A stretch of 42,687 nt of DNA from Pseudomonadota bacterium (GTDB taxonomy: Bacteria > Desulfobacterota > Binatia > UBA1149): NCBI GenBank assembly GCA_014382245.1, contig JACNKC010000076.1, positions 1 to 42,687 on the forward strand. Direction: 5' to 3'. The number at the start of each line of letters is the position of its first letter. Within the stretch, counting starts at the first letter, position 1. This document shows, in pieces, positions 12,412 through 42,675 of the stretch. The notes under the pieces are model-generated. The model did no database searches. It was not told the DNA's origin and was given only the letters and a program-made list of their open reading frames with translations. The translations under genes were made by a program, and so were the position numbers.

Positions 12412-13536
12412 ATGCTTTCACGACTCGACGATTACCCGGTGCACCAGGCGCCCGTTCCACTTCTGGGCCCAGCGACCAGCGACCGTAACGTATACGATCG
12501 CTACTGGATGAACGGCTTCGACCGTGACGGCGAGTTTTACTTTGCCTTTGGCCTGGCGCGCTACCAGCACCGGGGCATCCAGGACGCCGCCTTCAGCGTG
12601 GTGATCGACGGCCGCCAGTATGCCCTGCACGCCTCGGGTCGCGCGCCCGCGGAGCCCACCGATACCGCCGTGGGTTCAATGCGCTTGGAAATCACCGAGC
12701 CAATGCAGTCCATGCGATTGCTGGTCTCGCCCAACGAAGCGGGCATAGAGGGCGAGTTGGTCTACAGCGCGCGCACGGCCAACGTCGAAGAGGCGCGGCA
12801 GACCATGCGCCGCGATGGCCGGGTGATAATGGACGCCACGCGTTTTACCCAGTGGGGACGCTGGAGTGGGTCGCTGCGCGTGGATGGCCGCGAGCTTGAG
12901 ATCGACCCAGCGCGCGTGCTCGGCACCAAGGACCGGTCGTGGGGAGTACGCCCCGTGGGCGAACCCGATGCAGGCGGCGCACCGTCAGCCGAACTGCCGC
13001 AGATATTTTTCCTCTGGGCACCGCTGCACTGGGACGATCACTGCACGCACCTCGGCTTGTTCGAAGATGCCCAGGGTGGCAGGTGGCACCAGGGCGGTGC
13101 CGTACTTCCGGCCTATGCTTCGCTGGGCGAGCTGCCCGGTGTCGAAGATCCGGCTACCCGTCGCGCGCGCGCCGTGGATTACGAGGTCGATTATATTCCC
13201 GGCACGCGCCGTGCTGCGGCGGCACGCCTGCTGTTGGAGATGGGCGACGGAGAGCGCCGGGAGATAACACTCGAACCGTTGCTCACCTTTCGCATGAAGG
13301 GGCTGGGCTACCTGCACCCCGAGTGGGGGCAGGGCGTGTGGAAGGGTGAGCAGGCCGAGGCCGGCGAGAGCTGGGCCGTTGACGACATCGACGAGCTCGC
13401 CCTTGAAAACTTACACGTGCAGCAGGTGGTACGCGCCACCTGCGAGGGGCGCACGGGAGTCGGAGTGCTCGAGCAACTCGCCATAGGCCTGCACGCGCCG
13501 TCGGGCTTTACCGATTTTTTTGGCGGGGCCGAATGA
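12412..13536 (+). CDS. Uncharacterised CrtC/AttH-like beta-barrel protein
   Basis: 374 residues, no signal peptide. The motif KDRSWGVRPVG (near residue 176) and a hydrophobic sheet-rich pattern around it (FFLWAPLHWDDHCTHLGLFED) resemble CrtC/AttH-like lipocalin-type proteins, now usually listed as domains of unknown function in actinobacteria and delta-type lineages. A related protein occurs at 35905-36876, with DHSWG in the equivalent place. The enzymatic role is unknown; CrtC itself hydrates carotenoid double bonds, but that activity is not implied. The stop overlaps the next start (ATGA at 13533-13536), making a three-gene coupled unit with the two thioesterase-like genes. Confidence 0.6.
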   Translation: MLSRLDDYPVHQAPVPLLGPATSDRNVYDRYWMNGFDRDGEFYFAFGLARYQHRGIQDAAFSVVIDGRQYALHASGRAPAEPTDTAVGSMRLEITEPMQSMRLLVSPNEAGIEGELVYSARTANVEEARQTMRRDGRVIMDATRFTQWGRWSGSLRVDGRELEIDPARVLGTKDRSWGVRPVGEPDAGGAPSAELPQIFFLWAPLHWDDHCTHLGLFEDAQGGRWHQGGAVLPAYASLGELPGVEDPATRRARAVDYEVDYIPGTRRAAAARLLLEMGDGERREITLEPLLTFRMKGLGYLHPEWGQGVWKGEQAEAGESWAVDDIDELALENLHVQQVVRATCEGRTGVGVLEQLAIGLHAPSGFTDFFGGAE

Positions 13537-14423: not shown

Positions 14424-15272
14424 TCAGTACAGCCGTCCCACGAAGTGGGTGGCGAGGTCGAGCAGCAGGAGCATGCCCATCGAGGCCGCCAGGGCTTCGA
14501 CCACTACGCGGCGCAGGGGCCAGTTCTCGCCGGGCCGCTCATCCAGGCGGCGGAACATCGGGAAGCTCACGAGGAAGTAGCAGGCGTAGAACAGCGATCC
14601 CCACTTGAGCATGCGCGGCAGGTCGCTGTAGCCGAACTGCTGCTCGATGGATCCGCCGGCCATGAAAAAGGTCTCGGCCCAGGCAAACAGGTAGGCCACC
14701 GCCACGACCAGCAGCGGTTGCGCCCAGCGCGACGACAGCAGCGGCAGGCCGCCCGCGCGCCGAAGCAGCACGACGGCGGCCGCGTGGTAGCTCACAAAAT
14801 AAAACAGCGCCGAGGGGTACATGATCAACGGCACCGCCTGCGCGCCGCTGCCGATCAGGGCCGAGTCGAGGGTCCACTCGAGCTGCGGGTAGCGGTAGTA
14901 CATGCCGAGCACGTCGAAGAAGTACTCGCTACCGAAGTAGCTGCCCATCCCCGAAAATATGGCCAGCCACGCGGTGGCCTTGAACCAGTAGCAGCGCCAC
15001 CAGGGGCGCCCGGCCGCTGTCGTACGCCCGGCCAGGAGCGGCACCACGACCAGGGGGGCAATTATGGCCAGCATCGCCAGGTTGAGTGCCGAGTCGCCCC
15101 AGCGCTCACCGGAGCCTGTAAGCATGAGCGCACCCATGCAGGCCATCCAGTAAGGCGTGTAGAGCAGGAACAGTTTCTCGGCCCAGGCCTTGTCGGGGTT
15201 GGCCGAGAACCAGCGTGCAGCTGGCCGTTCGCCTCCGTCGTCGGCGACGGTATTCACTTGCGCGCTACTCAC
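14424..15272 (-). CDS. Cycloeucalenol cycloisomerase (CPI1) homologue
   Basis: 282 residues, polytopic membrane protein. It tracks the plant cycloeucalenol cycloisomerase family from end to end: WFSANPDKAWAEKLFLLYTP (plant NPSKRWGELFFLLYTP), YWFKATAWLAIFSGMGSYF, YFFDVLGMYY, FAWAETFFM, LFYACYFLVSFPMFRRLDE and VVVEALAASMG...LLLDL. In plants the enzyme opens the 9beta,19-cyclopropane ring of cycloeucalenol to give obtusifoliol in the ER membrane. GTG 15272 overlaps the upstream TGA by 4 nt, placing it last in an operon with an NTF2-like gene, a CYP51-ferredoxin fusion and another P450. Homology is clear (family knowledge from memory); the same reaction in this bacterium is inferred. Confidence 0.84.
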   Translation of the reverse strand: MSSAQVNTVADDGGERPAARWFSANPDKAWAEKLFLLYTPYWMACMGALMLTGSGERWGDSALNLAMLAIIAPLVVVPLLAGRTTAAGRPWWRCYWFKATAWLAIFSGMGSYFGSEYFFDVLGMYYRYPQLEWTLDSALIGSGAQAVPLIMYPSALFYFVSYHAAAVVLLRRAGGLPLLSSRWAQPLLVVAVAYLFAWAETFFMAGGSIEQQFGYSDLPRMLKWGSLFYACYFLVSFPMFRRLDERPGENWPLRRVVVEALAASMGMLLLLDLATHFVGRLY

Positions 15273-15805
15273 TCGGGGCGTATTTTCTCGTGGCCCGGAG
15301 CTACCTCACCGGCCACGGCTGCCTCGAGCCGCTTTGACATTCCCTCTCCCAGTACGCCGGCCTCTATCATCTCGAAGAACAAGGCGGTGACGTTGCCGAG
15401 GTCAAAGAAATCGGCCTGCCACTCCCACTTGAAGTCGCCCGCGTAGCGAAACCAGGATCCACCGATGCCTTCCACCGTGTAAGGCGTGCCGTCGGGCCTG
15501 CTGGCGTCGGCCACCTGTTTCCAGAAGCCGACGACCTCGCCCTGCTTCTCGTCGATGAGCACCTTCATGTAGGGGTAGTTCCAGCCGTCCAGTCCCTGCA
15601 TCTCGGTGCCCAGCGCCCACTCGCGGATCTGCTCGCGGCCGCGAGCCATGAAGCGCTCGTTGGGCCCGGTGTTCCAGCTGTACTCGGCGTCGTCGGTATA
15701 CATCTCGGCCATGGGCTGCCAGTCGCCGGCCTTCTCGGCACGGCGGTTGGCTTCGAGCCAGCGCTCTACCATTTCTTCGAGTTCTTCTCGCGGGTACGAC
15801 GGCAT
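15269..15805 (-). CDS. NTF2-like (SnoaL/ketosteroid-isomerase fold) protein in the sterol-type operon
   Basis: 178 residues starting MPSYPREELEEMVERWLEAN at 15805, chosen for its AGGAGGAA ribosome site at about 15811-15818; the open frame beyond it is antisense-like to the ferredoxin region. The pattern (GDWQPMAEMYTDDAEYSWN, RGREQIREWALG, WKQVADASRPDGTPYTVEGIGGSWFRY) is the NTF2/SnoaL fold. The fold includes ketosteroid isomerase, but I cannot point to its catalytic Tyr/Asp set. It lies 22 nt after the CYP51 fusion and overlaps the cycloisomerase start by 4 nt, so it probably acts on, or carries, the same sterol intermediates. A paralogue with the same REELEE start is at 41487-41966. Confidence 0.8.
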   Translation of the reverse strand: MPSYPREELEEMVERWLEANRRAEKAGDWQPMAEMYTDDAEYSWNTGPNERFMARGREQIREWALGTEMQGLDGWNYPYMKVLIDEKQGEVVGFWKQVADASRPDGTPYTVEGIGGSWFRYAGDFKWEWQADFFDLGNVTALFFEMIEAGVLGEGMSKRLEAAVAGEVAPGHEKIRPE

Positions 15806-15827: not shown

Positions 15828-17537
15828 TCACGGGAGCGGGTCGCTGGCTGTTTTTTTGTTAGAGTCTGCTGTGCGGATGGCGCGGGTGGGGCAGTTGGCG
15901 GCGGCCGCGGCGACACCCTGGCGCTGGTTGTCGGGCGGTTGCGGGTCGAGCAGCACAACCTTGTTGCTCGCGGTGTCAACGCGGAACACCTCCGGCGCTT
16001 CCGATTCGCACACACCGTGGCCCTGGCACAGGTCGAGGTCGACGCTCACGCGCAGGGGGCCGGTGGGTTGAACGTCTGCCGCAACCCCGGCTCGTGTGGA
16101 TCCAGTGTCGGAGCTTGTCCGGGTCGGTCGAATGCCCTGGCCACGTCGGCGGTAGCGCACGCGAACGGGGCCGGCCGGTTGCACGACCATCTTCGTGTAG
16201 TCGGCCTTGTAGCTGTCGGGAGCATCGACCAGTCGAAACTCGAAGTTGGCCAGTAGCGAGGTCATGATGGCCTTGATCTGCATGAATGCGAAGGCCGAGC
16301 CCGCGCAGCGATGGCGGCCACCGCCAAACGGAATCCACGCAAACGGTTTCTCGTGTTCCTCGCGGCCGGGCAGGTAGCGCGAGGGGTCAAAGCTCAGCGG
16401 GCCGGGAAACGACTCTTCGAGCAGGCCGGCTACCACCGGTGAGATGGCCACCTGGCTGCCGGCCGGCACCGTGTAGCCGCCGTAGTCGAAGTCGTGAATC
16501 ACGCCGCGCAACAATATCACCAGCGGCGGGGGCAGCCCGAGAAATTCGCGCAGCGCGGTCTCCCGCCCGGGCCTCTCGCGCAGGGACTGGGAGCCCAGGG
16601 CATCCCACCCGGCCCTGATCTCGTCGGTTTTTGCCCGCCCGCGGGCCCGTACCGGGGGGGTGGGCCGCAGCCCGGCCCCCCACCAGGGGGGGGGGCCCGC
16701 GCCCGTGGGGGGGGCGGCAAACATGGCGGAAGTGAGTATGCCGGTGATCTCGTCGGCGGTAAGCGACGACCCGTCGCTGTAGCGCGCCTCGATGAGCACC
16801 TGCAGCGCGTCGTCGGCGCTGTCGCCGGTGACCGAGCGGTCGTCGATGATGTCGGTGATCATTTCGACCAGGCGCACGCGGGCGCGGTCACGACGGCGGT
16901 GCGCGGGGATGGGGATCGAGGGGTTGATGTAACCGATGGGTGTGACGCCGCCTTCGAGGTCGGCGTACACGCGCGCGAACTCCTCGTTCATCTCGTGGCG
17001 AAACTTGCGGCCGAGCAGGCAGTGGCTCGATGTGTAGGTGGTGAGCTCGGCGAAAAAAGCGAGCAGGTCGAGCTCGCCCTCGGCGTCGAGCCCAGGCCTG
17101 CCCTGGCCGTCGCCGTTATTACCACCGTTATTACCGCCGTACATCATGCCGTTCACTTCTTCGACAAACACCGAGGTGTAGCTGCGCATGTTGCGGTCGC
17201 GAAGCGCGGGCATGAGAAAGCCGAGTTGCTCGCGCAGGCGATCGAGCGGGGCGTCAAAGACCACGCCCGGCCCGAACACCGGCGTCATGATTTCGTAGGC
17301 TTCTTTCTGGCTGAGCTGTTCGTCTGGCGCGCGGCAGAAGGCCTCGTGGGCGGCGGGCCCGGTCATGAGTACGATCTTCTTGTTGAGCAGGCGAAACTCG
17401 CCCAGCTCACCACACTCGCGGTGTACGCGCTGCATGAGCGCGACCGAGTTGCGGCCGAATTCAACGGCGTGGCCGAGCAGTGGCAGCCCGCCGCTGACCT
17501 TGGACGGGGCCCGGCGGGCGGCGGAGCGGTCGCTCAT
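15828..17537 (-). CDS. CYP51-type sterol 14alpha-demethylase fused to a ferredoxin
   Basis: 569 residues. Residues ~10-470 resemble bacterial CYP51 throughout: VSGGLPLLGHAVEF, LMQRVHRECGELG, AYEIMTPVFGPGVVFDAP, LLAFFAELTTYTSSHCLLG, LVILLRG, haem loop FGGGRHRCAG (Cys near 411) and AFMQIKAIM. After a ~25-residue linker, residues ~495-560 form a ferredoxin with CQGHGVC and NCPTRAI, typical of [3Fe-4S] P450 ferredoxins. The architecture matches the CYP51-ferredoxin fusion of Methylococcus. It would remove the sterol 14alpha-methyl. The segment 272-338 (16524-16724) is abnormal: HHT reads PPT and ExxR reads EFLG, with alignment length kept, which points to sequence error rather than real change. 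It overlaps the upstream P450 by 4 nt. Confidence 0.85.
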   Translation of the reverse strand: MSDRSAARRAPSKVSGGLPLLGHAVEFGRNSVALMQRVHRECGELGEFRLLNKKIVLMTGPAAHEAFCRAPDEQLSQKEAYEIMTPVFGPGVVFDAPLDRLREQLGFLMPALRDRNMRSYTSVFVEEVNGMMYGGNNGGNNGDGQGRPGLDAEGELDLLAFFAELTTYTSSHCLLGRKFRHEMNEEFARVYADLEGGVTPIGYINPSIPIPAHRRRDRARVRLVEMITDIIDDRSVTGDSADDALQVLIEARYSDGSSLTADEITGILTSAMFAAPPTGAGPPPWWGAGLRPTPPVRARGRAKTDEIRAGWDALGSQSLRERPGRETALREFLGLPPPLVILLRGVIHDFDYGGYTVPAGSQVAISPVVAGLLEESFPGPLSFDPSRYLPGREEHEKPFAWIPFGGGRHRCAGSAFAFMQIKAIMTSLLANFEFRLVDAPDSYKADYTKMVVQPAGPVRVRYRRRGQGIRPTRTSSDTGSTRAGVAADVQPTGPLRVSVDLDLCQGHGVCESEAPEVFRVDTASNKVVLLDPQPPDNQRQGVAAAAANCPTRAIRTADSNKKTASDPLP

Positions 17538-18760
17538 TTATTGAATTCCACCGGCATTGCCGAAAAGCCGCGCACGTTGACCGAGTGCACGCGTTCGAGT
17601 CCGTCCGGGTCGAGCTCGTAGCCTGCAAAGCTGCCCAGCAGCTCTTCGAGCGCCACGCGGGCCTCGAGCCGGGCCAGCGATGCGCCCAGGCAGAAGTGCG
17701 TTCCGTGACCGAAGGCCATGGTGTCGGTCGTGTCGCGGCGTATGTCGTAGACGTCGGCGTGGTCAAACACCCGCGGGTCGCGGTTGGCAGCGCCGACGAG
17801 CAGCACCACCATCGAGTCGGCGGGCACGGTTTGTCCGTACCACTCGAGCTCGCGTGAGCTGGTGCGTGCCAGTGCCTGCGACGAGGGATCGTAACGCAGT
17901 GTTTCTTCCACCCACGCGGGCACCAGCGACGGGTCGTTGCGCACGAGTTCAAACTGGTCGGGATTGCGCCACGCCCAGTACAACGCGTTGGCCAGCAGCT
18001 TGGTGGTGGTCTCGTTGCCGGCGATTATCATCAGGAAGAGAAATCCGATGATCTCGCGTTCGCTCAGGCTGTCGCCGTCGATCTCGGCGGTCAGGAGCGC
18101 ACCGGTGAGGTCGTCTCCGGGCTTGTCGCGGCGGTCGGCGAGCGACTGCTCAAAGTAGCCCACGATTTCCAACGCGGCTTCCAGCCCTGCCGTCGGTATG
18201 TCGCGAGAGCCTTCTTCGCGGTGCACGACGAGGTCGGCCCACTTGCGCAGTGTTTCGCGGTCGGCCTCGGGGACCCCCAGCATCTGGCTGACGACGTCCA
18301 TGGGCAGGCGGCCAGCAAAGTCGGAAATGAATTCACAGCGAGGGCCGTCGAAGCGCTCGATGTAGTGGCGCGCGAGCTCGCGTATGCCGGGCTCGAGCGC
18401 GGCCACGCGCCGGGGCGTAAACACGCGCGACACCAGCGCGCGCATGCGCGTGTGGCGTGGGGGGTCCATGGCCAGGAACGACATGGTGTTCTCGGCGTTC
18501 TCGGTCATGGTGGCGTCCAGCGACACGCCGCGGCGGTTCGACAGGTCGTCGGTATTGCGAAAACCGGCCAGCACGTCGGCGTGCCGCGACAGCGCCCAGA
18601 AGCCCAGCTCCTCGTTGTGGTACAGCGGCGCCTCTTCGCGCAGGCGCGCGTACACGGGGTAGGGATCCTCGTGCACCTCGTAGGCGTAGGGGTTATACAT
18701 CACCGCCCCTTCTGCCTGCGTCGGCAGCCGAGGGGGCCCTTTTGTCGACGCGCTACTCAT
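17534..18760 (-). CDS. Cytochrome P450 (bacterial class I type)
   Basis: 408 residues, complete soluble bacterial P450: I-helix AGNETTT near residue 248, ExxR in EETLR near 286, and haem loop FGHGTHFCLG with Cys near 356. The DDLSNRRGVSLD and MDPPRHTRMRALVSRVFTP region is typical of CYP107/CYP125-like class I enzymes that use a separate ferredoxin. The ATG lies at 18760; an in-frame second Met at residue 21 (MYNPYAYEVHEDPYP) is where the conserved part begins. It is the first gene of the operon and overlaps the CYP51 fusion by 4 nt, suggesting that it hydroxylates a related sterol or triterpenoid and could share the fused ferredoxin. The substrate is not deducible. Confidence 0.9.
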   Translation of the reverse strand: MSSASTKGPPRLPTQAEGAVMYNPYAYEVHEDPYPVYARLREEAPLYHNEELGFWALSRHADVLAGFRNTDDLSNRRGVSLDATMTENAENTMSFLAMDPPRHTRMRALVSRVFTPRRVAALEPGIRELARHYIERFDGPRCEFISDFAGRLPMDVVSQMLGVPEADRETLRKWADLVVHREEGSRDIPTAGLEAALEIVGYFEQSLADRRDKPGDDLTGALLTAEIDGDSLSEREIIGFLFLMIIAGNETTTKLLANALYWAWRNPDQFELVRNDPSLVPAWVEETLRYDPSSQALARTSSRELEWYGQTVPADSMVVLLVGAANRDPRVFDHADVYDIRRDTTDTMAFGHGTHFCLGASLARLEARVALEELLGSFAGYELDPDGLERVHSVNVRGFSAMPVEFNK

Positions 18761-18880
18761 GACCAGCGAAGACTACGCTCCTTGCCCCGATAACAGAAGG
18801 GGGCAGGGGTCTTTGGGGTCAGAAGTACCGGGACTTTCATGCCAGTAGGTACGAATCCTCCCTTGGGCTAGGGTGGGGTC
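18761..18880. other. Divergent promoter region of the sterol-type operon
   Basis: 120 nt between the P450 (-) and the beta-hydroxyacid dehydrogenase (+). It contains TTGCCCC...GGGGCAGG arms (about 18780-18805) followed by GGGGTCTTTGGGGTCAGAAG, which looks like a degenerate hairpin or repeat remnant, and a GTACC...GGTAC pair further right. No consensus -35/-10 is evident on either strand. It is the only place a promoter for the four-gene - strand operon could lie short of an internal start. Confidence 0.4.
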
Positions 18881-23842: not shown

Positions 23843-25003
23843 GTGAAGACTCTGCTCGAAGGCATACGGGCCCCGGCGTCGCTGGTGGCAGCGCTCGACG
23901 GCCGCGGCGCCGAGATCGAGAAACTCCGGCGCCTGCCCGACGACATCGTGGCCGAGTTGCTCGGCTCGGGTATTTTTCGTGCCTGCGTACCAGCCGTGTA
24001 CGGCGGCGACGAAACGACGCTGATTGAAACCCTTGCGCTTGTAGAAGACATAGCTTTCTACGACGGCTCGACCGGTTGGTGCGCCGGCATCGGTGCAACC
24101 ACCTCGACCTTGTCGGCGTGGCTGCAACCCGACGCGGCGGCGCTGGTGTACGGCGACCAAAACGTGATCACCGGTGGCCACGCGGCGATGCTGGGCACGG
24201 CGGCGCCGGCGCCCGCGGGCGGCCTGCTCGTAAACGGTGCCTGGCAGTGGGGCTCGGGCACGCAGCACTGCAGCTGGGTGGTGGGCGGTTGCCTCATGAC
24301 CAACTCCGAGGGCAAAGCAGCGTCCGGTCCAGGAGGGCTCGAGCAGGCCGCGGCGTTCATGCGGCCCCCACAACTCGAGTTCCTTGATACCTGGCATGTA
24401 TCGGGGCTGACGGGCACAGGCAGCGCGGACTTCAAGGCCGACGATGTTGTGGTCGAGGCCGGGTTGTGGGCCGACCCGTTCACGAGCCCGCCGGTTCTCG
24501 ACCTGCCGTTGTCACGTTTTCCTTTTTTTGGATTGCTGGCCTGCGGGGTCACCTGCGTTTCGCTGGGTATAGCCCGCCGCGCGTTGGCCGAGTTTGTCGA
24601 CCTGGCGGCAAGCAAGGTGCCCTTTCAGGCTGCGCGTACCCTGGCCGAGCGACCGACCGTGCAAGCCGGGGTGGCCCGCGCCGAGGCCGACCTGCTGTCG
24701 GCGCGCGCGTTGCTTCGCGAATCGGTGGAGGCGGCGTGGGCGTCGGCGGAGCAGGGCAGCCTGCCCGACGAGCAACGCCGCGTGCTCAGGCTGGCGGCCA
24801 CCACCGCGACGCTGTCGTCGGTGCGCGCGGTGGATTTTCTTTACACGGCCGCCGGCGGCTCTGCCGTCTACGAGAGCTCGCCCATGCAGAGATTGTTTCG
24901 CGACATTCACGTCGCCACCCAGCACGCGATGGTAAACGAGCGCACCCTCGAACTCACCGGTCGCATGGCGCTTGGCCTGCCAACCGACACGACCACGCTC
25001 TGA
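23843..25003 (+). CDS. Acyl-CoA dehydrogenase-fold flavoprotein, HsaA-like monooxygenase
   Basis: 386 residues, GTG start at 23843 (no strong ribosome site). ACAD fold: IEKLRRLPDDIVAELLGSGIFRACVP, DGSTGWCAGIG, WGSGTQHCSW, WHVSGLTGTGS, and a helical C-terminal domain ending in FRDIHVATQHAMVNE. The W-x-SGLTGTGS and C-terminal HVATQH patterns are those of the HsaA/HpaB-like flavin monooxygenases that hydroxylate phenolic (including seco-steroid) substrates rather than acyl-CoAs. Needs a flavin reductase, which the nitroreductase-like neighbour might supply. A paralogue is at 33188-34489. Confidence 0.82.
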   Translation: MKTLLEGIRAPASLVAALDGRGAEIEKLRRLPDDIVAELLGSGIFRACVPAVYGGDETTLIETLALVEDIAFYDGSTGWCAGIGATTSTLSAWLQPDAAALVYGDQNVITGGHAAMLGTAAPAPAGGLLVNGAWQWGSGTQHCSWVVGGCLMTNSEGKAASGPGGLEQAAAFMRPPQLEFLDTWHVSGLTGTGSADFKADDVVVEAGLWADPFTSPPVLDLPLSRFPFFGLLACGVTCVSLGIARRALAEFVDLAASKVPFQAARTLAERPTVQAGVARAEADLLSARALLRESVEAAWASAEQGSLPDEQRRVLRLAATTATLSSVRAVDFLYTAAGGSAVYESSPMQRLFRDIHVATQHAMVNERTLELTGRMALGLPTDTTTL

Positions 25004-25736: not shown

Positions 25737-26732
25737 ATGACAGACCGAGCGGCCCCTCCAATACCCAACGGCTGGTACGCTGTTGCTTGGAGCAAGGAAA
25801 TTGAACCCGGTGGGGTCAAGCGTGTGTACGCGTTTGAGAAAGAACTCGTCGTGTTTCGCACCGAGTCGGGCAAGGCCACGATTTTTGACGCGTACTGCCC
25901 GCACCTTGGCGCCCACCTGGGCGAGGGTGGTACGGTTGTTGGCGAGAACCTGCGCTGCCCGTTCCACCACTGGCAGTTCGACACCGACGGCAGCTGCGTT
26001 GATATTCCCTACGCAAAGCGTGTGCCGCCCAAGGCTTGCGTGGGAGCGTGGCCGGTGGTCGAGCGCGCCGGAATGGTGTTCGCGTGGCACCACGCGCTGG
26101 GTGGGCCGCCGTTTTTCGAGGTGCCCGAAGTGCCCGAGTACAACCACGCAGACTGGGCCGAGCCCCACTTCTGGGAGATAGAGGTCGACGTGCACGTGCA
26201 GGACATGGCCGAAAACAACTGCGACCCACCGCACTTTCTTTACGTTCATGAATCCGAGGAAGTGCCCGAGAGCGAGATCGAGTATCTCGACGGCGGGCTG
26301 ACCATGCGCATGGCCAGTTCGAGTGAGCGCGAGACGGTGATCGGCACTTACACCTCTGAACTCGAGCGCTACACCTGGTGCATCGGCCTGGCCGGCGTCA
26401 GGGTCAAGGGCATCGGTGACGCGGGCCTGTTGATGTTCTCGTCGACTACGCCGGTCACGCGTACGCACGCTCACTCGCGCTGGGTGTTCATGGTCACTCG
26501 CAACCTCGAGGGCAGTGCCGGCCAGGAGTTCATCGACACGATGAAGGAAGGTGTACAGCAGGACCTGCAGATATGGAATAACAAGAAGCACCGCGCCGAC
26601 CCGCTGCTGTGCGAAGGCGACCGCTTCCTGGCCGAGTTCAGGCGCTGGGTGAGACAGTTCTACTCTGAACCCGTGGGCCCTGAGCGCGTCGAAGCTCCGG
26701 TGCCCACCACGGGGGAGGCCGCCCAGGCATGA
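25737..26732 (+). CDS. Rieske non-haem iron oxygenase (KshA/Neverland-like)
   Basis: 331 residues. Rieske [2Fe-2S] ligands CPH (C54, H56) and CPFH (C74, H77). The mononuclear Fe site is in ENNCDPPHFLYVH (D-x2-H-x4-H), typical of Rieske oxygenase alpha subunits. PNGWYAVAWSKEIEPG, FDAYCPHLGAHLG and WPVVERAGMVFAWHH resemble the KshA and cholesterol 7-desaturase (Neverland/DAF-36) group, and a sterol C-4 demethylating oxygenase (SdmA-like) is another possibility. A steroid or terpenoid substrate is inferred from similarity and from the nearby CYP51 and cycloisomerase homologues, not proven. It follows TetR by 4 nt, with GAAGGAG upstream, and leads into the amidohydrolase. Confidence 0.86.
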   Translation: MTDRAAPPIPNGWYAVAWSKEIEPGGVKRVYAFEKELVVFRTESGKATIFDAYCPHLGAHLGEGGTVVGENLRCPFHHWQFDTDGSCVDIPYAKRVPPKACVGAWPVVERAGMVFAWHHALGGPPFFEVPEVPEYNHADWAEPHFWEIEVDVHVQDMAENNCDPPHFLYVHESEEVPESEIEYLDGGLTMRMASSSERETVIGTYTSELERYTWCIGLAGVRVKGIGDAGLLMFSSTTPVTRTHAHSRWVFMVTRNLEGSAGQEFIDTMKEGVQQDLQIWNNKKHRADPLLCEGDRFLAEFRRWVRQFYSEPVGPERVEAPVPTTGEAAQA

Positions 26733-28971: not shown

Positions 28972-29643
28972 TTACCCGGCAGTGATTTTTTTTGGCCGAC
29001 CGTGCGGCCGGTGACGGATCAGCTTGCTGGTTCGATTTGACCAGGGCTTATTGCCGAAAGGGGAGCTGTTGGCCGCGCTTTTTCTAAGGGCGTTAAGTTC
29101 GGCACTGCTCTGGGGGAGGTTTACGTAAGGTTCCCAAGCGTCGGGACGTTGGCAGGGCCACTCGCAAAGTGGTGGCAGACCATTTTTTTTGCACCCCATC
29201 GAACGTCCGGCGCTGCTCCAAGCCCACTCTCCGGCGCTCTGGACCAACCCTGCTCTCAGGGGGTTCCGCTCAACGTACCGACATACCGCGAGCAGGTGCT
29301 CATCGTCCTGCACCGCGAACGCCTTGAACGGGCCTCGGTATACGTGCCCGTTGCCCGGGTTTTGGCGGCAGGCGCGTAACCTTCTCACGTGGGTACAGGT
29401 CAGCCAGTGCATGAATCGCGACAGTGCCTCGTCGGTTTGCGGCCAGAGAACCATGTGGAAGTGGTTGGGCATGACACAGTAGGCAAGCAGCCGCATGTCT
29501 TTAACTTTTTCCAAGCCCTCGGTCATGACTTGTTCGAAGGCGCGGTAGTCTCCCGCTGAGCGAAATATGGGAATCCGTTCGTTCGCCCGGTTGAGTACGT
29601 GAAAAACCATACCCGCGGGTGTGATTCTGCGTCGTCCTGGCAT
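28972..29643 (-). mobile_element. REP-associated tyrosine transposase (RAYT, Y1/IS200-like HUH family)
   Basis: 223 residues. MVFHVLNRANERIPIFRSAGDY is the usual RAYT start. PNHFHMVLWP is the HUH metal site (H-F-H). CRYVERNPLRAGLV carries the catalytic Tyr region, and AGEWAWSSAGRS is conserved in RAYTs. It cuts single-stranded REP hairpins and is thought to move or maintain REP sequences. Inverted REP-like copies lie 15 nt beyond its 3' end (28893-28957) and 57 nt upstream of its start (29700-29764), the typical RAYT arrangement. There is no sign of decay. Confidence 0.93.
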
Positions 29644-35854: not shown

Positions 35855-35904
35855 GCGGGTGGCCACGGGGGGGCCCAGGTACCGTTGACCGCGGGGGGGG
35901 GGCT

Positions 35905-36876
35905 TCAGACCTGGCGCAGGAATTCGGACAGGCCGTAGCCGGTGCGACCGTTCATGGTCCACTCGGTCATGCCTTCGCCTATGTGCGTGGTCATTCCACC
36001 CCGGCGGTTGCGCAGCGGTATGAAACCTTTTACCTCTCCGTTGATGTCGAACTCGCGACCCGACGCGGTGGCGATGTGCACGCGCAGCGCGCGGTGGTAC
36101 AGGCCGTTGTCTTCGTAATCGGCATCAATTTCTACCCCGGTAACGCGATCGATCTTGCCACCCTCGACCACCACGCCGCCGAGGCGGATGTCATCGGGGC
36201 CGCGGCGGATAATGCTGACCATGGCACCCAGGTCGTCGCCGAAGTTCATGGTGAGCCACTCGTATCCTTCGATGGCCTGCCAGTAGCGAGGTCCCCAGCT
36301 GTGGTCGCGCAGGCCGTGCCCGTTGATCTCCACCGTTTCGTCGCCCAGCAGCAAGCGGCCGCTCACCCGCATGTGCTGTTCGTAGTGCGCCTTGGCAAAC
36401 TGCTGGTCATCGGGGAGCTTGTCTTCGCTCTTGTCACCCGAGCTTCCGTACATGGGTCCGACCGCAACGTGATCGAGTTCGAGTGACAGTGGCCGCGACG
36501 GGTTGTCGGTAAACGCGCGTCGGGGTTCGGCCATCTGCGTGGGGTCGGCGAGCTCTACCACCTGCCCGCTGTAAGTTGTGCGCAGGTGATGGCCCGGCTC
36601 GACCACGGTGAAGCACATGCCGCCGGCCTCGAATGAATCGTTGTTGTCGATGGCAGGCCTCGCAAAGTTGAACAGCACTCGCCCATCGGGCAGGTAGACG
36701 GTCACCGTCATCTCGGCACGGCCCTCGTTAGCGCGGTTGCCCAGGCGCACGAAACCTCCCACGCCGCGGTCGCGGTCGAAGAAGTTGAAGTACATGCTCT
36801 CGTTGAAGTTGGGCTCGGGGCCCAGTGGGTGGGTGTAGTCGTCGTCGGGGCTGATGTTGCCAAGCGTGAGTGTCAT
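35905..36876 (-). CDS. Uncharacterised CrtC/AttH-like beta-barrel protein
   Basis: 323 residues from ATG 36876 (a GTG two codons earlier is possible). LRDHSWGPRYWQAIEGYEWL near residue 192 is the D-x-SWG motif also found in 12412-13536 (KDRSWG). The surrounding strands (FNFFDRDRGVGGFVRLGNR; VSIIRRGPDDIRLGGVVVEGG) suggest a two-barrel lipocalin-like fold. No signal peptide. Function unknown. It lies between a CYP124/125-like P450 and an unknown gene, all potentially linked to lipid metabolism, but nothing fixes its role. The space between it and the P450 (35855-35904) is very G-rich. Confidence 0.55.
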   Translation of the reverse strand: MTLTLGNISPDDDYTHPLGPEPNFNESMYFNFFDRDRGVGGFVRLGNRANEGRAEMTVTVYLPDGRVLFNFARPAIDNNDSFEAGGMCFTVVEPGHHLRTTYSGQVVELADPTQMAEPRRAFTDNPSRPLSLELDHVAVGPMYGSSGDKSEDKLPDDQQFAKAHYEQHMRVSGRLLLGDETVEINGHGLRDHSWGPRYWQAIEGYEWLTMNFGDDLGAMVSIIRRGPDDIRLGGVVVEGGKIDRVTGVEIDADYEDNGLYHRALRVHIATASGREFDINGEVKGFIPLRNRRGGMTTHIGEGMTEWTMNGRTGYGLSEFLRQV

Positions 36877-36951
36877 GCACACTTGTTAGCCCGGCCGCGC
36901 AGTCCAGTCGAGGCGGCGGCGCGCGAGCCACGCACACGCCGGCGAGTAGCC

Positions 36952-42018: not shown

Positions 42019-42675
42019 TCAGCGCAACCAGCCCTGCCCACCGTCGAGCATTATGGTGCTGCCTGTCATGTAACCCGCGTCGGGTCCGCACATCCAGGCC
42101 ACGGCCCGGCCTATGTCGGTCTCGCAGTCGCCCACGCGTCCGAGCGGCACACTGCTGAGCATGTCCCGGTATTCGTCGTTGAAGTTTTCTTTCCACCACT
42201 CCATGCCCGGCGAGGCCGCCAGTGGCACGATGTTGAGCAGGCGTATGCCCATCGGCCCCCACTCCCAGGCCGCGGCGCGTGTGAGCATGCGCGTGGCTTC
42301 CTTGATGGCCGCGTAGGCACCCAGGCCGTCGGGGTCGGGTCGCAGCGCCGAGCCACTGCCCAGGTTTATGACCACGCCACCGCCGCGTAGCTCGTCGTGG
42401 CACGCGCGCATCAGGCGCAGGCTCGCCAGTGGTCCGCTGCGAAAGCCGCGCTCGAACTCCTCGTCGTCCACCTCGAGCAGCTTGCCCAGCGGCACCGTCT
42501 GGGCGTTGTTGACCAGTATGTCTATGGCCGAGTACTCGGCCATGGTGGTGGCCACCATCCGCTCGATGTCGTCGGTCTCGACAACGGCGGCCTCCACAGC
42601 CACCGCCCCCCCCCCCCGCCCCTGTATCTCCGCCCCCGTTACGGCCCCCTCTCCCCTGGGCCCCCCCGCCCCCAC
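42019..42675 (-). CDS. SDR oxidoreductase, N-terminus lost in degraded contig end
   Basis: Short-chain dehydrogenase. IDILVNNAQTVPLGK (NNAQ rather than NNAG), NLGSGSALR with the catalytic Ser region, GAYAAIKEATRML (YxxxK) and the typical ending YMTGSTIMLDGGQGW. The Rossmann motif is missing: the first ~30 codons fall in a C-run-rich stretch (about 42590-42687) that looks like poor sequence, though residues such as GGAVAVEAAVVETDDIERMV still align with the usual AVA-x-DVTD region. The start is therefore unknown. Followed by the NTF2-like gene. Confidence 0.72.
   Translation of the reverse strand: MGAGGPRGEGAVTGAEIQGRGGGAVAVEAAVVETDDIERMVATTMAEYSAIDILVNNAQTVPLGKLLEVDDEEFERGFRSGPLASLRLMRACHDELRGGGVVINLGSGSALRPDPDGLGAYAAIKEATRMLTRAAAWEWGPMGIRLLNIVPLAASPGMEWWKENFNDEYRDMLSSVPLGRVGDCETDIGRAVAWMCGPDAGYMTGSTIMLDGGQGWLR

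Follow-up and report, generated by a model that had tools for sequence, protein, structure and literature searches.

The window, a stretch of 42,687 nucleotides from contig JACNKC010000076.1, contains four nearly contiguous minus-strand genes in the order P450, CYP51-ferredoxin fusion (CYP51-Fd), 8,14-Bsr homologue, and cycloeucalenol-cycloisomerase-like (CPI-like) gene. The features of the locus are as follows.

14424..15272, minus strand: membrane protein of 282 aa, cycloeucalenol-cycloisomerase-like, beginning with GTG and overlapping the Bsr stop by 4 bp
15269..15805, minus strand: 8,14-Bsr homologue, 178 aa, NTF2/SnoaL-like, ATG at 15805 behind AGGAGG
15828..17537, minus strand: CYP51-ferredoxin fusion, 569 aa, one open reading frame
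15870..16049, minus strand: [3Fe-4S]-type ferredoxin domain, aa 497-556, CQGHGVC ... NCP (Pfam and motif)
16050..16139, minus strand: linker, aa 467-496, between the CYP51 and ferredoxin domains
16140..17507, minus strand: CYP51 domain, aa 11-466 (coordinates computed from the alignment)
16531..16728, minus strand: patch of about 200 bases, most likely corrupted, in which all changes are substitutions and A>C and T>G prevail (comparison with congeners)
17534..18760, minus strand: upstream P450, 408 aa, overlapping CYP51-Fd by 4 bp (ATGA), homologous to the P450 found ahead of CYP51 in clusters of actinobacteria
18761..18880, no strand: divergent intergenic region, presumed operon promoter

The fusion and the 8,14-Bsr homologue are separated by a 22-bp gap carrying the AGGAGG, and a divergent 3-hydroxyisobutyrate-dehydrogenase-like gene lies upstream of the operon. 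The spacing of the four minus-strand genes suggests that they form one transcript. Since homologues of the upstream P450 and of the fusion are neighbours in dozens of loci, it is plausible that the fused ferredoxin is shared with this P450.

Within 10 kb of the operon are a KshA-like Rieske oxygenase (25737-26732), which matches KshA structures at 4e-45, and an HsaA-like flavin oxygenase (23843-25003), which has 164.6 bits to NF045629 and Rv3094c as its top PDB match. Both are below the equivalog cut-offs, and a TetR gene adjoins them. SdmA was rejected as the identity of this Rieske gene, which scores 68.7 bits where the cut-off is 600. For TIGR03213, the putative HsaC probe, the match in G000 is weak (4.1e-4, well short of the cut-off), as are its matches in the genus. 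The window also has an Rv3169-family protein (12412-13536; 388 bits, above the cut-off), a weaker relative of it with DUF7064/7065 (35905-36882), and an IS200-like (Y1_Tnp) transposase gene (28972-29643).

The initial annotation described a CYP51 of about 460 residues, a linker, and a [3Fe-4S]-type ferredoxin in one gene. This is borne out by a single 569-aa frame with no internal stops, which has the three segments listed above, and in which Pfam places p450 at aa 17-458 (4e-44) and Fer4_15/Fer4_13 at aa 497-556 (1e-10). Among solved structures, the CYP51-ferredoxin fusion of M. capsulatus matches best (2.9e-147, aa 11-557), and CYP51s of mycobacteria and eukaryotes come next. Nearly all top matches are CYP51 structures, with 495 bits for 6mcw compared to 116 bits for 3dbg, a P450 of non-CYP51 kind, and a grouping outside CYP51 was not seen. 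The haem-binding FGGGRHRCAG and B-prime YEIMTPVFGPGVVFDA segments are present and align with 6mcw. In the ferredoxin, CQGHGVC ... NCP fits the [3Fe-4S] ferredoxin motif CXXHXXC(X)nCP (PMC9868604). CYP51 and ferredoxin are not split by a frameshift, and two congeners keep the frame at 91-92% identity. As the fusion is also present in these congeners, an assembly artefact is excluded, and a chimeric join as its source was rejected. The CYP51 of the genus also has a repeat-like GGNNGGNNGDG insert (17090-17140), where the UBA1149 assembly has an N run; it may be a variable short repeat.

CYP51-ferredoxin fusions are already known, and the fusion by itself is ordinary. The Methylococcus precedent named earlier stands, but the fusion is not special to Methylococcus, since most class relatives with a CYP51 have it, as do one myxobacterium and a few actinobacteria. 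It was rejected as a general actinobacterial trait, since the tblastn matches spanned separate CYP51 and ferredoxin frames. In most actinobacterial loci, CYP51 ends near residue 465.

While the first reading of the fusion was right about the identity of CYP51 and ferredoxin, it overlooked the two downstream genes that define the locus and an error-like patch in the CYP51 gene. The patch removes GHHTS from the I-helix and the arginine of ExxR: the window letters at the I-helix and K-helix motifs are AAPPTG and EFLG, both within the patch, and match neither GxHTS nor ExxR. The orthologues of the congeners G002 and UBA1149 are intact, with AGHHTSSGT and EVLR/EALR. The window protein reads AMFAAPPTGAGPPPWWG...REFLGLPPPL, compared to AMFAGHHTSSGTLTWLV...REVLRLHPPL in the congeners. 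Within the patch, as bounded for this count, the protein loses eight residues that at least 95% of 74 CYP51s share, and H336 lies just past its edge. Counted only where G002 and UBA1149 have the same base, differences number 38 in 201 bases within 16515-16720, compared to 54 in 3386 outside (Fisher test on the rate, p 7e-25). A>C or T>G make up 22 of the 38 changes, compared to 6 of the 54 (Fisher test on the type, p 2e-6), and 25 of the 38 are at codon position 2.

The intact congeners indicate that the patch is most likely a base-call or assembly error in a poorly covered stretch. If CYP51 had instead truly decayed in this strain, the patch would be a real mutation cluster and the fusion a pseudogene here, and the printed CYP51, without GHHTS and the ExxR arginine, is consistent with such decay. 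Against it, the patch of about 200 bp has no indel and its frame stays open, the bias towards A>C and T>G is confined largely to it, and it contains long G runs (16654-16660, 16686-16695, and 16707-16714). The sequence on either side is about 96% identical to that of G002, the remainder of the gene differs mostly at third positions, and the patch is the most divergent 100-bp bin of the stretch relative to G002. Decay is thus very improbable. The enzyme encoded by the printed copy would be dead, and the real gene of the organism is probably intact. The claim of CYP51 membership concerns the orthologous gene and does not extend to a functional product of the printed letters, and the CYP51 of this assembly, as printed, is unsuitable for cloning or motif surveys. 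Two other places have G or C runs of 7-12: 35855-35904, in the interval from the P450 at 34505 to the DUF7064 gene, and 42606-42667, at the contig end. They resemble the patch in kind and are possibly further low-quality stretches.

The 178-aa protein has a Pfam SnoaL_2 domain (NTF2-like) and is a homologue, by sequence, of the recently described 8,14-sterol reductase, with a predicted reductase role. The published 8,14-Bsr pocket comprises Y37, Y43, Y78, Y80, D133, and D136, and all six residues are found in the window homologue at a constant offset of -1 (Y36, Y42, Y77, Y79, D132, and D135). Of 200,000 shuffles, only 5 placed even four of the six. Among 64 Bsr homologues, Y42, Y77, and Y79 are present in all, and D132 and D135 in 63, with one gap. 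The Y36 position is Y or F, a substitution noted in the Bsr paper itself. Co-localization with a CYP51 that has its ferredoxin fused or adjacent is the published criterion for 8,14-Bsr; the window homologue lies beside such a fusion, and Bsr homologues come after CYP51 in about 60 loci. In E. coli, the M. capsulatus fusion turns lanosterol into 4,4-dimethylcholesta-8,14,24-trienol, and 8,14-Bsr converts this to the 8(14)-dienol (PMC13277303). The M. tuberculosis Bsr has the same 8,14-reductase activity as that shown in E. coli. The CYP51/8,14-Bsr pair is reported from proteobacteria, Mycobacteriales, and Myxococcota.

The 282-aa CPI-like protein has no Pfam, NCBIfam, or PDB sequence match. The plant reference used for comparison is a presumed sequence of Arabidopsis CPI1 (cycloeucalenol cycloisomerase); it is the sole CPI1 reference, and it was set down when the window protein was already known. 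The window protein aligns over its length with this presumed CPI1 at 34% identity (9e-46), within a range of 26-40% for the bacterial homologues. The G057 homologue, which became known only after the reference was set down, matches the presumed CPI1 better than the window protein does (1.7e-54). An HMM from the bacterial homologues alone finds the presumed CPI1 at 1.8e-66 and lists none of its shuffled copies, and 37 of 44 bacterial invariant positions are also in the presumed CPI1. The AlphaFold model is a mostly helical bundle (pLDDT 77) with no convincing match among PDB folds (best Foldseek E 0.68, best Z 4.3). The CPI-like assignment is a strong lead, though not proven. CPI1 is known in plants and in some protists with the cycloartenol pathway (PMC8172173). 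The window gene differs from it in being bacterial and without a cycloartenol synthase. No report of a bacterial CPI was found in the open-access literature, which is not proof of absence, and the plasmid records gave no match to a CPI homologue.

CPI homologues are present in 8 of 145 class genomes, and a CYP51 match in 12 of 58 relatives. The CPI-like, Bsr, and CYP51-Fd genes are adjacent in five genomes, namely three of the window's genus (g1), G029, and G036, so this trio is kept in two families, f1 and f9. G044, G057, and G479 have a CPI homologue without CYP51-Fd. The distant homologue of G479 (L112 3493-4383), whose genome has no CYP51-Fd match, lies near an ALDH (76%), an SDR_A (77%), and a dehydrogenase resembling genes of the G029 cluster. 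No CPI was found in 48 genomes reached through CYP51/Bsr loci, which are mostly actinobacterial. In Acidimicrobiia and Williamsia, P450, SDR, CYP51, ferredoxin, and Bsr make up a broader recurrent cluster, and ALDH and SDR genes often lie close to it. The G029 and G036 cluster comprises P450, SDR, SDR, ALDH, CYP51-Fd, Bsr, and CPI; its two SDRs and ALDH are absent at the same place in the window locus. In a CYP51 tree that includes the congeners and leaves out the patched window copy, the CPI-bearing fusions form one clade (100/97), which lies with the M. capsulatus and eukaryotic references on one side of a strong branch (100/100). Other fused class members fall apart from this clade. The outgroup branch of this tree is very long, and its outgroup root is unreliable.

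Squalene epoxidase and oxidosqualene cyclase were not detected in the five trio genomes, which are 86-99% complete. The g1 genomes have no PF13249 match, and no squalene or oxidosqualene cyclase was found in the genus; the cyclase of G029 and G036 carries DTDDTA, the squalene-hopene cyclase (SHC) motif. G021 served as a positive control, in which squalene-epoxidase-like and oxidosqualene-cyclase-like (DCTAE) domains were found beside an unfused CYP51. This CYP51 is 42% identical to that of the window, while Bsr and CPI are absent. The G021 region (L103 1-15000) contains a reductase-like membrane protein, CYP51, the epoxidase-like and cyclase-like domains in one open frame, and SMT-like, Rieske, and SDR genes. 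It resembles a de novo sterol cluster, here from a member of the same class.

The M. capsulatus CYP51-fx (PDB 6mcw/7snm) resembles the window protein in being a one-chain CYP51 and [3Fe-4S]-type ferredoxin, and it works with an 8,14-Bsr. In contrast, M. capsulatus makes its own sterols, a synthesis not found here, and its Bsr is in a separate cluster, whereas that of the window is adjacent and is followed by a CPI-like gene. The M. tuberculosis cluster (CYP51 Rv0764c, Fdx Rv0763c, and 8,14-Bsr) likewise belongs to an organism that makes no sterols and has CYP51 beside a ferredoxin, as well as a functional Bsr, but its ferredoxin is a separate gene. The order P450, SDR, CYP51, Fd, and Bsr of Williamsia and Acidimicrobiia, in which M. 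tuberculosis Rv0762c and Rv0766c are presumably counterparts, has an SDR that is missing from the window, and the 48 mostly actinobacterial genomes gave no CPI.

The lack of detectable squalene epoxidase and oxidosqualene cyclase in the trio genomes points to sterols from outside the cell, and we consider it rather probable that the locus is an operon that serves to remodel the rings of exogenous 14-methyl, 9,19-cyclopropyl sterols. The CPI-like protein would yield delta-8 sterols by opening the 9beta,19-cyclopropane ring of cycloartenol-type sterols. CYP51 would then remove the 14-alpha-methyl group to give 8,14-dienes, with electrons from the fused [3Fe-4S] ferredoxin and a putative separate reductase, and the 8,14-Bsr homologue would turn these dienes into 8(14)-sterols. 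The upstream P450 is probably active on that substrate too. Ring opening before 14-demethylation is the order in plant biochemistry. The position of 8,14-reduction as the last step follows PMC13277303. The sequences themselves show which genes are present, their order and conservation, the Bsr pocket residues, and the lack of detectable squalene epoxidase and oxidosqualene cyclase in the trio genomes; we infer the substrates, the reaction order and direction, the CPI activity, and the fate of the product, which may be degraded or used. The odds are about even that a plant-type cyclopropyl sterol isomerase works with CYP51-Fd and 8,14-Bsr to convert cyclopropyl sterols of plants or algae in a bacterium with no sterol synthesis of its own. 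The CPI homologues of G044, G057, and G479, without CYP51-Fd, count against the exogenous-sterol reading, as do the KshA-like and HsaA-like scores below the family cut-offs and the weak TIGR03213 match, and no gene was assigned as a transporter or reductase.

The operon may also ready 14-methyl sterols for full degradation, as proposed in Mycobacteriales, with the CPI-like gene extending the range to plant and algal sterols. This is a narrower form of the remodelling reading and compatible with it, and we regard it as possible, somewhat short of probable. The cluster of P450, SDR, CYP51, Fd, and Bsr common to actinobacteria is consistent with it, and so is a Mycobacterium sp. that turns lanosterol into a C19 8(14)-steroid, a result cited in PMC13277303. 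The nearby KshA-like and HsaA-like genes hint at catabolism; their scores below the equivalog cut-offs, the Rv3094c match of the HsaA-like protein, and the weak TIGR03213 matches speak against it. Recruitment of the sterol enzymes to another pathway, with a non-sterol terpenoid or lipid as the substrate, would agree with the undetected de novo sterol synthesis and with several further P450s in the genome. It is nevertheless unlikely, as the three adjacent genes resemble three different sterol-nucleus enzymes and the published Bsr pocket residues are retained.

What is new here, at the level of sequence, is a CPI-like gene inside an 8,14-Bsr/CYP51 cluster without a sterol pathway. It carries the CYP51/8,14-Bsr pair into the class of UBP10/UBA1149, together with a gene like that of the plant ring-opening step. 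If the remodelling reading is true, it would give a testable bacterial route for cyclopropyl sterols, including the opening of the 9,19-cyclopropane ring. It would also suggest a reason for the presence of CYP51 in some bacteria without sterol synthesis, which is an old puzzle in mycobacteria.
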